DNA from: Hyella patelloides LEGE 07179
Lineage (GTDB): Bacteria; Cyanobacteriota; Cyanobacteriia; Cyanobacteriales; Xenococcaceae
Reading direction: 5' to 3'
Length of the DNA stretch: 58,526 nt
Assembly: GCF_900659865.1 (NCBI RefSeq)
Contig: NZ_LR213776.1
Location: 1 to 58,526 of the forward strand
Numbering within the stretch: position 1 is the stretch's first letter; every line of letters starts with the position of its first letter. Shown one piece after another: positions 40,414 to 52,703 of this stretch. Below the pieces are notes generated by a model that saw only the letters and a list, made by a program, of their open reading frames with translations, searched no databases and had not been told where the DNA came from. A program made the translations under genes and the position numbers.

Positions 40414-41118
40414 ATGGTTCCTTTAAAAGACGAAAACCCAATTAAGATTACTCCTTATGTCACCTATACCTTAATCGCCATTAACATAATTGTTTTTATT
40501 TACGAACTTAGTTTAAATCCCTCTCAACTAGAAACCTTGTTTCACTACTTTGCTGTTGTACCCCTAGAATTAACCGTAAATCTAGGCGGTGCTGCAACTT
40601 ATCAACCAGTACCAGAACTTGCTACCCTAATTACCTGTCAATTTCTCCATGCTAGTATTGCCCATATCGCTTTTAATATGCTCTTCTTGTGGATATTTGG
40701 GAACAATGTCGAAGAACAATTAGGTAGCAGCAAATACTTAGTTTTTTATCTTTCTTGTGGCGCACTTGCAGCCTTATCCCAATGGTTTTTCTCCGCTACC
40801 TCTGATGTTCCCTCTTTAGGTGCTAGTGGTGCAATCGCAGGAGTTATGGGCGCATATATTTTAAAATTCCCCCAAGCTAAAATTGTGACTCTCGTACCTT
40901 TGGGCTTTTTCTTCCCCATCTTTCGTATTCCCGCTATTTACTTTCTTGGTTTTTGGTTTCTCGAACAAGCATTCAATGGTATTGCTTCTCTAGAAGTACC
41001 CGTCAATGTCGGAATGGAAAGTGGTGGTGTTGCTTATTGGGCGCACGCAGGAGGCTTTGTCTTTGGTGCTATCCTCGCCCCCATGTTAGGATTATTTTCC
41101 TCAAGGGATGAAGGATGA
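40414..41118 (+). CDS. Rhomboid family intramembrane serine protease
   Basis: A 234-residue polytopic protein. GASGAIAGVMGAY contains the catalytic Ser138, and YWAHAGGFVFG the catalytic His211; HASIAHIAFNMLFLW is the usual rhomboid loop. It cleaves transmembrane segments of other proteins within the membrane. Its substrate is unknown. The stop codon overlaps the beginning of a heptamer repeat array (41117-41170). The 253-nt gap before it shows no clear promoter. Confidence 0.9.
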   Translation: MVPLKDENPIKITPYVTYTLIAINIIVFIYELSLNPSQLETLFHYFAVVPLELTVNLGGAATYQPVPELATLITCQFLHASIAHIAFNMLFLWIFGNNVEEQLGSSKYLVFYLSCGALAALSQWFFSATSDVPSLGASGAIAGVMGAYILKFPQAKIVTLVPLGFFFPIFRIPAIYFLGFWFLEQAFNGIASLEVPVNVGMESGGVAYWAHAGGFVFGAILAPMLGLFSSRDEG

Positions 41119-41170
41119 AGTCAGAAGTCAGAAGTCAGAAGTCAGAAGTCAGAAGTCAGAAGTCAGAAGT
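41117..41170. repeat. Heptamer tandem repeat (STRR), unit GAAGTCA, 7 copies plus partial
   Basis: Seven perfect copies of GAAGTCA run from 41117 to 41165, followed by GAAGT. Short tandem heptamers like this are the STRR class known in cyanobacteria. The array starts within the last codons of the rhomboid gene. No spacers are present, so it is not a CRISPR. Confidence 0.9.
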
Positions 41171-41183
41171 AGCGAGTAATGAG

Positions 41184-41241
41184 CCACCAACAACTAACAA
41201 CTAACCACTAACCACTAACCACTAACCACCAACCACTAACC
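41184..41241. repeat. Second heptamer repeat (CCACTAA-type) abutting hisF
   Basis: About eight units of CCACTAA or its variants (CAACTAA, CCACCAA) end 6 nt before the hisF ATG. A different heptamer array lies 14 nt upstream. The repeats fill the whole hisF leader, so no Shine-Dalgarno is visible; expression of hisF must use sequence inside or beyond the repeats. Confidence 0.85.
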
Positions 41242-41247
41242 AAAATA

Positions 41248-44958: not shown

Positions 44959-45121
44959 GTATTTAGCTGCGAGCAACAATCCTAACAAACTATTCTTATA
45001 TTGTGATGTCTCTTAACATACATCGGCAAATTATTGCCTATGCACGATCTGACAACAGGATAGCTGTTAACTTATGTTAAGTAAACCATACTTTAGTTCC
45101 TTAAACCAGATTTAAAAGCCA

Positions 45122-45670
45122 ATGAATCGTCATTCTTTTGTGAAGTTTTTGTCAATCATTTGTCTGTCTTTACTATTTTTTAGTAACTGCGTCCCTTATG
45201 CTTTAGCTTTAGGTGGAACACAACCACCAGTTAATGAACCAGCACCAGAGTTTACCCTTCCTACTAATACAGGGGATGGGGAAATTTCTTTAAATGATTA
45301 TCAGGGTAAGTGGGTGGTTTTGTATTTCTATCCCCAAGACTTTACCTCTGGTTGTACCGTTGAAGCTCGTCGTTTTCAACAAGATTTAGCGGAATATGAA
45401 GCTAGAGATGCTCAAATTTTAGGGGTAAGTGTTGATGATGTTGATTCTCACCGCGAGTTTTGCGATGCAGAGGGTCTCAAGTTTCCCCTTCTGGCTGATA
45501 CTGATGGTAATGTTAGTAAAGCCTATGGCTCTTGGTTAGGCTCAATGTCTTTGCGTCATACCTATTTAATTGACCCTAATGGTGTTTTACAAAAGGTGTA
45601 TTTAGGAGTAAGACCTAATACCCACAGTCAAGAAGTATTAGCCGATTTAGATAGCTTTCAAAATTCTTAA
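45122..45670 (+). CDS. Exported peroxiredoxin (BCP/PrxQ-like)
   Basis: A 182-residue protein. A signal peptide (hydrophobic core about 8-22, cleavage near ALA at 27-31) directs it to the periplasm or thylakoid lumen. The peroxiredoxin domain has the peroxidatic Cys78 in FTSGCTVEARRF; the resolving Cys usual in PrxQ four or five residues later is absent (EARR instead of EACG). Cys114 (REFCDAEGL) is the likely alternative. It reduces peroxides using thiols. It is divergent from sat with a 163-nt gap and is followed by hairpins at 45697-45717 and 45741-45766. Confidence 0.85.
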   Translation: MNRHSFVKFLSIICLSLLFFSNCVPYALALGGTQPPVNEPAPEFTLPTNTGDGEISLNDYQGKWVVLYFYPQDFTSGCTVEARRFQQDLAEYEARDAQILGVSVDDVDSHREFCDAEGLKFPLLADTDGNVSKAYGSWLGSMSLRHTYLIDPNGVLQKVYLGVRPNTHSQEVLADLDSFQNS

Positions 45671-45696
45671 TTGAAATTAGATAAAGTCACAGATTA

Positions 45697-45717
45697 CTCC
45701 GCCGTAAAACGACGGAG
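45697..45717 (+). terminator. Hairpin after the peroxiredoxin gene
   Basis: Arms CTCCGCCGT and ACGACGGAG with an AAA loop (one C/A mismatch). Located 27 nt after the stop. No strong T run, so it may be a terminator or a processing hairpin. Confidence 0.5.
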
Positions 45718-45740
45718 ACGGCACGTGACCGTTGGTTAAA

Positions 45741-45766
45741 GTAGGGTGGGATATGTCTCGCCCTAC
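45741..45766. repeat. Dispersed GTAGGGTG/CGCCCTAC palindrome
   Basis: Eight-bp arms (one G-T wobble) at 45741-45748 and 45759-45766. Similar to the palindrome at 3564-3586, so probably a common dispersed repeat of this genome. Confidence 0.5.
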
Positions 45767-45825
45767 AATTGTAAGGTGTTTTTTATTGATTTCTTGAGTT
45801 AATGCTTCTTGAGTTAATACACTAT

Positions 45826-45935
45826 TATAGTGATTCCAAATAAAAACCTTATACTTGACTGTTCAGGCGTTCCCTGTTCAGGCGTTCCCTCGAACCATTA
45901 AACTTAATGTAAGGAAATTAATTGGAACGACTATA
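45826..45935. mobile_element. 110-bp MITE, copy 1
   Basis: Starts TATAGTGATTCCAA and ends TTGGAACGACTATA, 14-bp terminal inverted repeats with two mismatches; pairing continues imperfectly (CCTTA / TAAGG inside). Inside is a 15-bp tandem duplication (TGTTCAGGCGTTCCC twice). Copy 2 at 46934-47043 is identical over all 110 bp and in the same orientation. The TA at both ends suits TA-targeting (IS630/Tc1-mariner-like) mobilisation. No transposase is inside. Confidence 0.85.
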
Positions 45936-46070
45936 CTTTTTAATCACGATCGCAAATTAGATTGTTTTTAACTATGGTGGAATTCTTTGTCTATTCTTAA
46001 TTTTCTTGGCTATGATAGTAGACATCAAATTAAATGATGGGTTTTACCTTCAAAAATAAGAGCAACAATT

Positions 46071-46916
46071 GTGATTAATCAGTTGATTCAAGCATTTAAG
46101 CCTAAAAGCTCTAATGTTACTATTAGTGTCAGCTTTGATAATAAATACTTAGACTATGGAAAAATCTTACTAAATTCTCTTATCAAAAATTCTCCAGATG
46201 TCAAAGTTGTAGTGTTAGCAATTAACATACCAGAGAATGACCTAAAAAAGTTTGCTGAGATCGAGAATATTAAAGTAATTCATGAGAACAAAAATTTTCT
46301 CCATGCTTATGAGCAACGTCTATACGTTACTACAAGAAGAATTTTTTTGATTAACGAGCTTAGACAAGATAGTTCTACTGAAAATCTTCTTCAATTAGAT
46401 GCCGATGCAATTGTCAAAAGAAATCTCAACAGATTTGGTACTCTCTTTCAGCAAGGAGATTTCTGTATTTTTGCTCGACCTAAAATGAAGCATGAAGCTT
46501 TAAGGTTGACAATGAACGTACTCGGTTTATCTAATTCTTCTGTGGCTAAAGAACTAACTCAAGAGTGGGTTAAACAACTTTGGAAAATTCTTGAAGAACC
46601 ACAACAAAGCAAGTATATCGATCAGCTAACCCTATGGAAAGCTTATGAAAAAGTAAATCAAGAGTATGGAGTAAAGTTGGTTAATTTAGGTACTCCTTGG
46701 ATTGGTAGTTCAAGAAATACTATTATCAGAACATTCTATGCAACAAAAAATGCTAAAGGCGATCGAAAACTCTTGAAAGAACTTAATAAATTTACAGAAA
46801 ATTACCTGAAAGAAGCACCTAGTAATGCACCTGCAAAGCCTGAAGAAACAGAGGTTTTCTTGACAAGAAGTTTACTTAGCGAACATTTTGAAAAATTTGG
46901 TTTGAGTGCCTCATAA
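46071..46916 (+). CDS. Glycosyltransferase family 8-like protein, between two MITEs
   Basis: A 281-residue protein from a GTG start. The N-terminal half is a GT-A-like Rossmann region (TISVSFDNKYLDYGKILLNSLI, VKVVVLAIN) with the metal motif LLQLDADAIVKRNL (DAD at about 114-116), as in GT8 enzymes. TPWIGSSRNTIIRTFYATKNAKG is the later block. No signal peptide. It is the only gene between two identical, same-direction 110-bp MITEs. Acceptor and donor unknown; assignment rests on the DAD motif and fold-like pattern. Confidence 0.6.
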   Translation: MINQLIQAFKPKSSNVTISVSFDNKYLDYGKILLNSLIKNSPDVKVVVLAINIPENDLKKFAEIENIKVIHENKNFLHAYEQRLYVTTRRIFLINELRQDSSTENLLQLDADAIVKRNLNRFGTLFQQGDFCIFARPKMKHEALRLTMNVLGLSNSSVAKELTQEWVKQLWKILEEPQQSKYIDQLTLWKAYEKVNQEYGVKLVNLGTPWIGSSRNTIIRTFYATKNAKGDRKLLKELNKFTENYLKEAPSNAPAKPEETEVFLTRSLLSEHFEKFGLSAS

Positions 46917-46933
46917 GCTTTGTATCTAAAATC

Positions 46934-47043
46934 TATAGTGATTCCAAATAAAAACCTTATACTTGACTGTTCAGGCGTTCCCTGTTCAGGCGTTCCCTCG
47001 AACCATTAAACTTAATGTAAGGAAATTAATTGGAACGACTATA
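46934..47043. mobile_element. 110-bp MITE, copy 2 (identical to copy 1)
   Basis: Same ends (TATAGTGATTCCAA and TTGGAACGACTATA), same internal 15-bp duplication and no mismatches relative to 45826-45935. Flanks differ (AATC before, AGTT after), so the shared block ends at the TATA termini. It separates the GT8-like gene from the 3' end of the ketosynthase. Confidence 0.85.
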
Positions 47044-47060
47044 AGTTCAATGTTTAATAA

Positions 47061-49067
47061 TTAATCCCACCAATATGTTTGTCTTTGAAAAGGATAAGTA
47101 GGCAAAGTAATTCTGTTTCCACCAAAATTTTTGGCTACAGTTTGCCAATTAATCGCAACACCTAATATATACAATTGTGCTAATCCTGATGTTAGTAGTT
47201 GCCAATCATCTAATTCATGATTGATTTTCGTAAAAATAACTGTTTGATTTTCATTTGATTGTAAGCTCGACTGGTCGTTAATTTCCCAACAAATTTTAGC
47301 GACATCTAAATCAGCAACGGGATTAATAAGCATCGATGCTGCTAAATCTAATAGGGGTTTTTGTACTTCAGGAGAATTAATAACAGTAACTTTAGGTTCA
47401 CTATTGAGATTTACTTTACCTTGCCAAAATTCTGTAGGTGTTTTTTGATTGATAAATTGCCTTAATTTGCTTTGTAATTCCAGGGTAGAACTTGCGGTGA
47501 GGGCTAATCTATGGTTAAAATGCGATCGCCCTATATTAACGGTTAAACAAATGTCTTCTAGGTTAAGATGGGGATTTTTTTCTAGATATTCAGTGTAATT
47601 GGTAACTAGCTGTTGTAAAGCGGGTTTATTTCTGGCAGAGAGGCTAAATAAATTACTATCTGGTCTAATAACGGTATGACTGTCTTCCATATCGGGAGCT
47701 TCTGAGATTATTACATGGGCATTTGTCCCGCTCAAGCCAAAAGCACTGACTCCTGCAATACGAGGTTGTTCTTTTTTCTCCCAAGACAAGTTATTTTTGG
47801 GTAAGATAAAGGGCGATTTTTGCCAATCTATTTGGTTATGGGGTTGTTTAAGATGGAGATTAGCAGGAATGGTTGATTTTTGCAGAGATAAGACCGTTTT
47901 GATCGAGCTAGCAATACCTGATGCCGATTCTAAGTGACCGATGTTAGTTTTAACCGCGCCTAAAATTAATTGCTCATTATAGGCAAAGACTGAGCTTAAA
48001 GCTTCTATTTCAATTAAATCTCCTAATGATGTTCCCGTACCGTGGCTTTCTACATAGCTAACTTGGGATGGCTTTATTTTACTATTCTTCAATGCCTGCT
48101 TAATTACCGCTTGCTGCGACAAACTATTGGGGGTGGTAATACTGCTAGTGCGCCCATCTTGATTAACCGCCGAACCTAATAAAACAGCTTGAATATTATC
48201 TCGATCTGCAATAGCATCATCTAAGCGTTTCAAGATGACAATGCCACAACCTTCCGAGCGTACAAAGCCATTAGCAGAGGTGTCAAAAGTTTTACATAGC
48301 CCATCAGGAGAGAGCATTTTAGCCTGAGAAAAGTTAATACTAACTTGAGGCGCAATGAGGCGATTTACACCTCCTACTATAGCTAAATTTGATTCGCGAT
48401 CGCGTAAACTTTTAATTGCTAAATGTACTGCAACTAAAGATGAAGAACAAGCAGTATCTAAAGAAATACTGGGCGCAGTTAAACCATAAAAGTGTGATAA
48501 ACGCCCCGAAGCCAGACTATGGGTATTACCTGTAGTTAAATAAGCATCGATTTGGTTAGGGTTACGATTGAGTAATTGATGCCAATAGTCTGTACCACAG
48601 ATACCAATAAAAACCCCTGTAGCAGTTCCTTTAAGCTCTTCTGCGGGGATAGCTGCATTTTCTAAAGCTTCCCAACTTACTTCTAACAGTAATCTTTGTT
48701 GGGGGTCAAGACTGATTGCTTCTCTGGGTGCAATACGAAAGAAAGCAGCATCAAATTCTTTTAAATGGGGGACAAATCCACCGTAAGCAGTACAAATTTT
48801 ACCAGGGGTGTTAACGGCATCACTACAATATTGCTTTAGATCCCAATGTACTTCAGGTACTTTGGTGATAGCATTACCACCTTGAGATAATAATTGCCAA
48901 AACTCTTCAGGATTATCTGCGCCAGGAAAACGACACCCAATTCCGATAATCGCTATCGGTTCATGTTTCGCTTTTTCCAAGGTATCTATTTTGTCTCGCA
49001 TTTGTTTTAATGCCAGTAGAGCCTTTTTCGTAGGTGAGAGATTATCTGATGCTGCTAAACTTTCCAC
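47061..49067 (-). CDS. Orphan type I PKS ketosynthase (no acyltransferase or ACP)
   Basis: A 668-residue protein. A short N-terminal docking-like helix (about 12-35) precedes a full ketosynthase (37-450) with the active-site triad Cys207 (DTACSSS), His342 (ESHGTGT) and His378 (KTNIGHLES). The KS C-terminal extension and linker follow (to about 545). Instead of an AT domain the sequence goes almost directly to the segment that normally follows an AT (ILGVAINWQTVAKNFGGNRI, LPTYPFQRQTYWW) and stops. So the AT is deleted, or the protein is a free-standing condensing enzyme using a partner AT and ACP. The start is GTG 49067; upstream the frame is open to a stop at about 49140. Confidence 0.85.
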   Translation of the reverse strand: MESLAASDNLSPTKKALLALKQMRDKIDTLEKAKHEPIAIIGIGCRFPGADNPEEFWQLLSQGGNAITKVPEVHWDLKQYCSDAVNTPGKICTAYGGFVPHLKEFDAAFFRIAPREAISLDPQQRLLLEVSWEALENAAIPAEELKGTATGVFIGICGTDYWHQLLNRNPNQIDAYLTTGNTHSLASGRLSHFYGLTAPSISLDTACSSSLVAVHLAIKSLRDRESNLAIVGGVNRLIAPQVSINFSQAKMLSPDGLCKTFDTSANGFVRSEGCGIVILKRLDDAIADRDNIQAVLLGSAVNQDGRTSSITTPNSLSQQAVIKQALKNSKIKPSQVSYVESHGTGTSLGDLIEIEALSSVFAYNEQLILGAVKTNIGHLESASGIASSIKTVLSLQKSTIPANLHLKQPHNQIDWQKSPFILPKNNLSWEKKEQPRIAGVSAFGLSGTNAHVIISEAPDMEDSHTVIRPDSNLFSLSARNKPALQQLVTNYTEYLEKNPHLNLEDICLTVNIGRSHFNHRLALTASSTLELQSKLRQFINQKTPTEFWQGKVNLNSEPKVTVINSPEVQKPLLDLAASMLINPVADLDVAKICWEINDQSSLQSNENQTVIFTKINHELDDWQLLTSGLAQLYILGVAINWQTVAKNFGGNRITLPTYPFQRQTYWWD

Positions 49068-52510: not shown

Positions 52511-52617
52511 AAGTAGCAAGTAGCAAGTTTGTCTTCTTGTAAGTTAAAAGCAATTATTTGATCCTTCTTATTTGAGTTACTTGCTACTTGTTCCTTGCTA
52601 CTTGCTACTTGCTACTT
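52511..52617. repeat. Inverted heptamer repeats forming a large hairpin
   Basis: AAGTAGCAAGTAGCAAGT at 52511-52528 is perfectly complementary to ACTTGCTACTTGCTACTT at 52600-52617. Additional units of the TGCTACT heptamer occur at 52579-52589 and 52594-52600. The loop is 71 nt. Heptamer (STRR) arrays in opposite orientation are unusual. Confidence 0.85.
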
Positions 52618-52634
52618 AAACCATACTTCGGGCT

Positions 52635-52703
52635 TTACTTATTACTTATTACTTATTACTTATTACTTATTACTTATTACTTATTACTTATTACTTATTA
52701 CTT
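52635..52703. repeat. Heptamer tandem repeat TTACTTA, about 9.9 copies
   Basis: Nine perfect copies of TTACTTA from 52635 to 52697 and a partial tenth. STRR-class repeat with no spacers. Confidence 0.9.

Follow-up and report, generated by a model that had tools for sequence, protein, structure and literature searches.

Did a gene that stands between two identical short repeats arrive there together with them, and could the three move or be lost as one? The question arises in the window, that is, the whole stretch of 58,526 nucleotides of Hyella patelloides LEGE 07179 that was analysed, in which an earlier note had described two identical 110-bp MITEs in direct orientation around a GT8-like gene. 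The features concerned are as follows.

45122..45670, + strand: AhpC-TSA/PrxQ-type peroxiredoxin gene, the upstream neighbour, which adjoins ATP sulfurylase here and in relatives
45826..45935, + strand: MITE copy 1, 110 bp, assigned to the non-autonomous IS630/ISY100 type, upstream of the bracketed gene
45826..45839, + strand: left terminal inverted repeat of copy 1, TATAGTGATTCCAA
45859..45890, + strand: core tandem array of copy 1, 15-bp unit x2.1
45922..45935, - strand: right terminal inverted repeat of copy 1, TATAGTCGTTCCAA on the - strand
46071..46916, + strand: bracketed gene, 281 aa, putative GT-A (GT8-like) glycosyltransferase with D110-A-D112, of patchy distribution
46934..47043, + strand: MITE copy 2, 110 bp, equal to copy 1, assigned to the non-autonomous IS630/ISY100 type
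46934..46947, + strand: left terminal inverted repeat of copy 2
46967..46998, + strand: core tandem array of copy 2, 15-bp unit as in copy 1
47030..47043, - strand: right terminal inverted repeat of copy 2
47061..49067, - strand: stand-alone ketosynthase, 668 aa, the downstream neighbour, convergent

The two elements and the gene between them

The description of the pair was borne out in most of its details. The two copies are identical at 110/110 bp in direct orientation, with 1108 bp from start to start; TATA forms the first and the last letters of both, in agreement with the claim of TA at the ends, and the internal 15-bp duplication is a tandem of CTGTTCAGGCGTTCC (x2.1). The 14-bp terminal inverted repeats are present as well, but they are imperfect, matching at 12/14 and, over a longer stretch, 14/17 positions. 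With a length of 110 bp (too short for a transposase), 12/14 ends and dispersed copies, the window elements have the characters by which MITEs are recognised.

As a single strand, the MITE folds more strongly than 200/200 shuffles, both as RNA (z -4.4) and as DNA (z -3.9). With regard to a reading as an RNA element, no Rfam family scored above its gathering score within 45000-47200. Neither copy contains a promoter-like or terminator-like site; over 45600-47200 there are 4 promoter-like sites vs 5.2 in shuffles and 1 terminator-like site vs 0.7, both within the shuffle range, and one of the promoter-like sites lies at 45987-46016, between copy 1 and the bracketed gene. With regard to carriage, the plasmid and phage collections held no match to the 110-bp MITE.

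Copy 1 sits between the PrxQ-type peroxiredoxin gene and the bracketed gene, while copy 2 fills the next gap, leaving 17 bp to the stop of the bracketed gene on one side and 17 bp to that of the convergent ketosynthase on the other. The ketosynthase is conserved among relatives, and the idea that the MITE truncated it was rejected, for the open frames of seven close homologues measure 665-704 aa vs its 668. The 30-bp flanks of copies 1 and 2 have 9/30 bases alike on each side. Therefore the flanks are unrelated and the pair is not a duplicated block. That one real copy was placed twice, the assembly duplication that the earlier note had named as a refutation, is very unlikely. Exact repeats are hard to place in a draft of 675 contigs, but here the copies have four different flanks within one 58.5-kb contig, all four joining the element at a TATA terminus, and common sequencing reads are longer than the 110-bp repeat.

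The bracketed gene is probably a sugar transferase (glycosyltransferase). The DxD motif D110-A-D112 is invariant in 5/5 aligned sequences, but the GT8 label used by the earlier note is weak, as the protein reaches 19.9 bits against the Pfam GT8 family PF01501, below the cut-off of 24.3, and has no NCBIfam hit. The predicted model of the protein is poor (mean pLDDT 50), and the Foldseek hits to it are weak: five have E <=0.001, with TM-scores of 0.15-0.37. Lysyl hydroxylase LH3 ranks first among these PDB matches, which also include glycogenin and blood-group transferases. The homologue in the genome G002 adjoins two glycosyltransferase genes and an acyltransferase gene. A probable exopolysaccharide cluster was also observed at 12063-33658, some 12 kb before the bracketed gene on its upstream side; the 8 of its proteins that were scanned gave hits to Wzz/AAA, hexapeptide transferase, pyruvyltransferase and glycosyltransferases, with one below the cut-off and one without a hit.

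Copies, relatives and parent elements

The genome search for more copies that the earlier note had proposed was productive. With the 110-bp query, three further copies of the subfamily were found in the same genome, on contigs C444, C30 and C364, which gives five in total. Those on C444 and C30 are 101 bp long, and the one on C364 is 145 bp long with an insert in its array. Outside the core array the C444 copy is identical to the window copies, and the C30 and C364 copies are one position off each. Therefore the perfect identity of the pair, which had been taken as a sign of recent activity or gene conversion, is less special than thought, although recent copying is supported. In the core, all three carry a 7-bp CTGTTCC array where the window copies have the 15-bp unit. 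Exact matches to this unit number 4 in the whole genome, all of them inside the window pair, so it was rejected as a dispersed repeat; near-matches lie in other small arrays on C87 and C331 and, twice, in a longer repeat on C308. Since only the window copies carry the 15-bp core variant, they are each other's closest relatives.

A second subfamily combines the common right end with a CATCCTT-type core, and many of its copies have further palindromic inserts. Allowing at most 1 mismatch, a search for the right-end motif gave 26 places in this genome and 148 across 21/27 genomes of the family, this one included, while the reversed-pattern control gave 0; at least 2 of the 148 belong to IS elements (in G015 and G014), and those on C603 and C604 are one sequence shown twice. 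As far as the letters can tell, the window pair is a real, recent and rather ordinary pair of MITEs from a family common to the relatives.

Three kinds of unusual member were noticed in the wider set. Five elements of the own genome (L011, L013, L014, L015, L019) have palindromic or REP-like inserts nested in their core arrays. Four MITEs of G022 (L059, L278, L296, L340) contain a second, decayed right end, as if fused or nested. Finally, L332 (G013:C1:1808766-1809216) is a MITE of 335 bp in which a long CTGACCT array and a longer higher-order unit are mixed.

The earlier note had also proposed a search for an IS630-like transposase with the same ends; such an element exists in relatives, but in the own genome only broken or distant ones were seen. 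The closest full element is L211 of the relative G015, 924 bp long with two overlapping transposase frames, the larger of which passes the NCBIfam IS630 cut-off (NF033545: 113.5 vs 100 bits). When compared with the outer 28 bp of the MITE, the transposase-3' end of L211 agrees with the right end at 24/28 and with the left end at 21/28, and its 5' end with the left end at 22/28 and with the right end at 18/28; the assignment of the MITE right end is thus clear and that of the left end weak, the left end matching both L211 ends almost equally. In G014, broken transposase frames lie next to an exact copy of the 23-bp right-end motif, and two MITEs of G015 (L044, L062) have intermediate ends. With ends common to the MITE and to a transposase-bearing IS630 element, the window elements are, by sequence, non-autonomous IS630/ISY100-type MITEs.

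The own genome has 26 DDE_3 (IS630-type) places. Its loci scanned for TATAGT-type ends (12 + 1 + 10, overlapping) contained only one element with both such ends, a 951-bp element on C145 whose frames are broken, and the closest protein matches to the G015-type transposase are fragments at 48-58%. An intact helper transposase of this type was not found in the own assembly, whose 675 contigs may miss IS copies. The C145 element is the less likely parent, since its ends agree with the MITE right end at 17/28 and 18/28 while the G015 type reaches 24/28. Rejected as helpers were the IS630 fragments at the ends of C15, C158, C271, C358 and C414 (L083-L087), which are one and the same piece of another IS630 element and have ends of another type than TATAGT; on C158, the fragment is closely followed by a TATAGT-type end. 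Since this fragment recurs at five contig ends, a multi-copy IS630 element is the probable cause of the assembly breaks there. In L206, L208, L209, L211 and L236 the transposase lies in two overlapping frames, which suggests that this IS630 family may use programmed frameshifting; the A-rich frame overlap was read in the C145 element only.

How the pair may have arisen

For five copies in 8.06 Mb, the expected number of same-subfamily pairs within 1108 bp is 0.003, and, the window pair apart, no two of the 148 right ends lie within 5 kb of each other on one contig, many contigs being short. Together with the private core, the expectation of 0.003 means that one copy is probably the source of the other, or that a single event produced both. 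Two insertions made independently from one source copy, and not from each other, would agree with a recently active subfamily, but a third copy with the 15-bp core is absent from the assembly and chance would provide only those 0.003 pairs; we hold this origin to be extremely improbable.

The account that we prefer, with moderate confidence, is that one copy was formed from the other in a hop over a short distance, that the gene arrived separately, and that the bracketing results from the landing place. An IS630-type transposase acting in trans would recognise the MITE ends, excise the element and insert it at TA, as the ends and the biochemistry of ISY100 indicate. The subfamily evidently spread in this genome recently, leaving five near-identical copies. 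One of the window copies would then have hopped over a short range across a glycosyltransferase gene of patchy distribution that had arrived on its own, so that the bracketing would reflect the landing site and no dedicated composite element would be involved. In the wider MITE family, cores often contain a 7-bp tandem array, of which the 15-bp unit is a local variant. The simplest origin of the pair would be a short-range hop; composite insertion, integration of a circle and gene conversion are also compatible with it.

The separate arrival of the gene is argued from the rarity of its homologues and from the limits of the homology. Clear homologues were found in 2/59 other genomes, G002 (64%) and G009 (63%), while G001 and the own genome gave marginal hits. 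A scan that reaches no further than close relatives yielded another two, one in Anabaena subtropica (73%) and one in a Scytolyngbya MAG (61%). With the Anabaena gene, the closest of them, homology at the DNA level spans 46072-46903, which is coding sequence only. The four homologue loci, all in other cyanobacteria, have other neighbours, and 0/4 of them showed a TATAGT-type end (at most 1 mismatch) in the 10.8-14 kb around each; for G002 and G009 this absence says little, since the right-end motif is absent from both whole genomes. The earlier note had held that a gene without MITEs and in unrelated flanks in sister strains would refute its reading. This arrangement was seen in other species, at the four loci, while sister strains lie outside the sample.

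These observations bear directly on the claim that the 1.1-kb unit is mobile as a composite, in which the outer ends of copies 1 and 2 would have moved a 1218-bp MITE-gene-MITE unit into the PrxQ-ketosynthase interval in one step. We consider this unlikely, and the claim was not upheld. Identical direct copies around one patchily distributed gene are what it would leave, and identical MITEs are described around Acinetobacter integrons, where mobilisation was inferred (PMC10969869). No relative locus searched has PrxQ and the ketosynthase adjacent, or the bracketed gene beside either: 0 of 25 PrxQ and 11 ketosynthase loci, mostly with 1.5-kb flanks (some ending at contig ends, and longer for 11), had both genes or the bracketed gene. 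The arrangement absent from these loci may therefore be young. ATP sulfurylase stands beside PrxQ in 24/25 of the family loci, the remaining one being cut by a contig end. Against composite movement, the unit was observed once only, none of the other four gene loci has such ends (though two of those genomes lack the MITE family altogether), homology to the nearest homologue ends at the coding sequence, and the own assembly yielded no intact helper. A composite transposon would be recognised by its unit at more than one site or by an empty site; one locus was found, with no empty site among the loci searched. Consequently neither the unit nor the two MITEs can be dated in that way, and we infer the TA duplication at the two window sites, no empty site having been seen.

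Homologous recombination offers another route, by which a circle of the gene and a MITE crossed over into a solo MITE between PrxQ and the ketosynthase. It would yield exactly two identical direct copies, private core included, but it needs a MITE beside the gene elsewhere, and none was seen at the homologue loci; we regard it as improbable. Whatever the origin, recombination between two identical 110-bp copies may delete the gene, so that the pair could delete the glycosyltransferase gene or, less likely, carry it.

Heptamer arrays in the cores and known systems

The heptamer-bearing core of the wider family matters more than the window pair itself. For its analysis, 142 right-end contexts (at most 3 mismatches) were used, including 60 places picked by hand from the list of 148 right ends, which was covered in part, and 88 of the 142 have a left end 60-420 bp away; the other 54/142, without a left end under this pairing rule, were excluded. 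Some left-right pairings are probably false, e.g. L046, L116, L283 and L338. The 88 elements are 62-335 bp long and come from 18 genomes, with 23/88 belonging to the own genome and a single one, of G038, to a genome outside the family. TA is found at both termini of 83/88, but the search pattern itself demands those letters.

In 54/88 cores the best exact repeat (run of at least 7) has a period of 7, 14 or 21, compared with 5.7 per 88 in the background, which was length-matched, mostly non-coding sequence from 303 kb of sampled loci. Another period was found in 8/88 cores, the window pair with its 15 bp included, where the background gives 20.4 per 88. Runs of at least 14 occur in 29/88 vs 1.8 in the background. 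As the 88 elements share ancestry, these counts overstate their independence. Heptamer cores are present in 11/18 genomes and runs of at least 14 in 8; the elements of the other 7/18 have no heptamer core (0/4 in G012). The units fall into 28 strand-collapsed classes that differ between lineages, and TAACTGA is absent from all 28.

Heptamer arrays are also found free of MITE ends. With at least 3 copies of the unit, 27 free arrays were counted in the sequence examined, four of them in the window. Their unit classes are also MITE units in 6/23 cases vs 1.0 expected when the letters of the units are shuffled (1/2000 shuffles reached 6). Two of the window arrays, GAAGTCA x7.7 at 41117-41170 and CCACTAA x8.4 at 41184-41242, are adjacent in one intergenic gap without MITE ends, and both units are also present in MITE cores of relatives. 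Two further arrays are TACTTGC x5.7 at 52578-52617 and TTACTTA x9.9 at 52635-52703; TACTTGC is a MITE core unit on the other strand.

It may be that heptamer arrays are spread and reseeded in cyanobacterial genomes by IS630-type MITEs acting as their vehicle, a tentative reading that we hold to be doubtful and in which the data allow transfer either way, from array to core or from core to array. The ends would move, the core would keep its 7-bp period while the unit turns over, and the arrays would remain after the ends decay. The genomes without heptamer cores, the lack of TAACTGA among the units and the frequency of free arrays without ends all count against it. If true, the reading would provide a mechanism for a spread of heptamer repeats that is otherwise unexplained: the scattered distribution of the arrays would have a testable cause, and array unit and length would become markers of recent MITE movement. 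No published description of heptamer arrays inside IS630-type MITEs was found in a search that most subscription papers lay outside, so they may already be known.

The nearest published counterparts of the cores are the heptamer repeats of cyanobacteria. MacGregor 2015 reports that the distribution of TAACTGA suggests horizontal transmission, for which "no mechanism is evident", with a mobile element left open (PMC4679880), and Rehm 2015 describes excess heptamers in Nostoc (PMC4692102). They resemble the MITE cores in their 7-bp period, intergenic position and frequency in cyanobacteria; on the other hand, these accounts, as far as cited here, do not place the repeats between transposon ends, and TAACTGA is not among the core classes of our set (PMC4679880, PMC4692102). 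BrickBuilt of Porphyromonas gingivalis is described as a MITE with a 23-bp minisatellite core (Klein 2015, PMC4596501). It has a tandem-repeat core as the window MITEs do, but with a 23-bp unit and in one species, whereas here a 7-bp period recurs and the unit changes between genomes.

With regard to the pair, the Acinetobacter MITE-flanked integrons are alike in having cargo between two identical MITEs; they differ in that identical MITEs are reported there around different integrons in several strains, while here the unit was observed once (PMC10969869). Among cyanobacteria, 147 MITEs are reported for the genome of Anabaena sp. 90 (PMC3542288), and Nezha is called an active MITE of cyanobacteria in the title of Zhou 2008 (via PMC10969869), to which our elements are likened by that title alone. 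Finally, ISY100 of Synechocystis (IS630/Tc1/mariner) is described as a cut-and-paste element that inserts at TA with duplication and whose transposase binds the terminal repeats (PMC2170065). The window MITEs resemble it in their TA termini and imperfect inverted ends, and their family includes full elements with TATAGT-type ends. Unlike ISY100, they have no transposase, and it is by description that ISY100 is set beside them, whereas the G015 type is set beside them by its letters.
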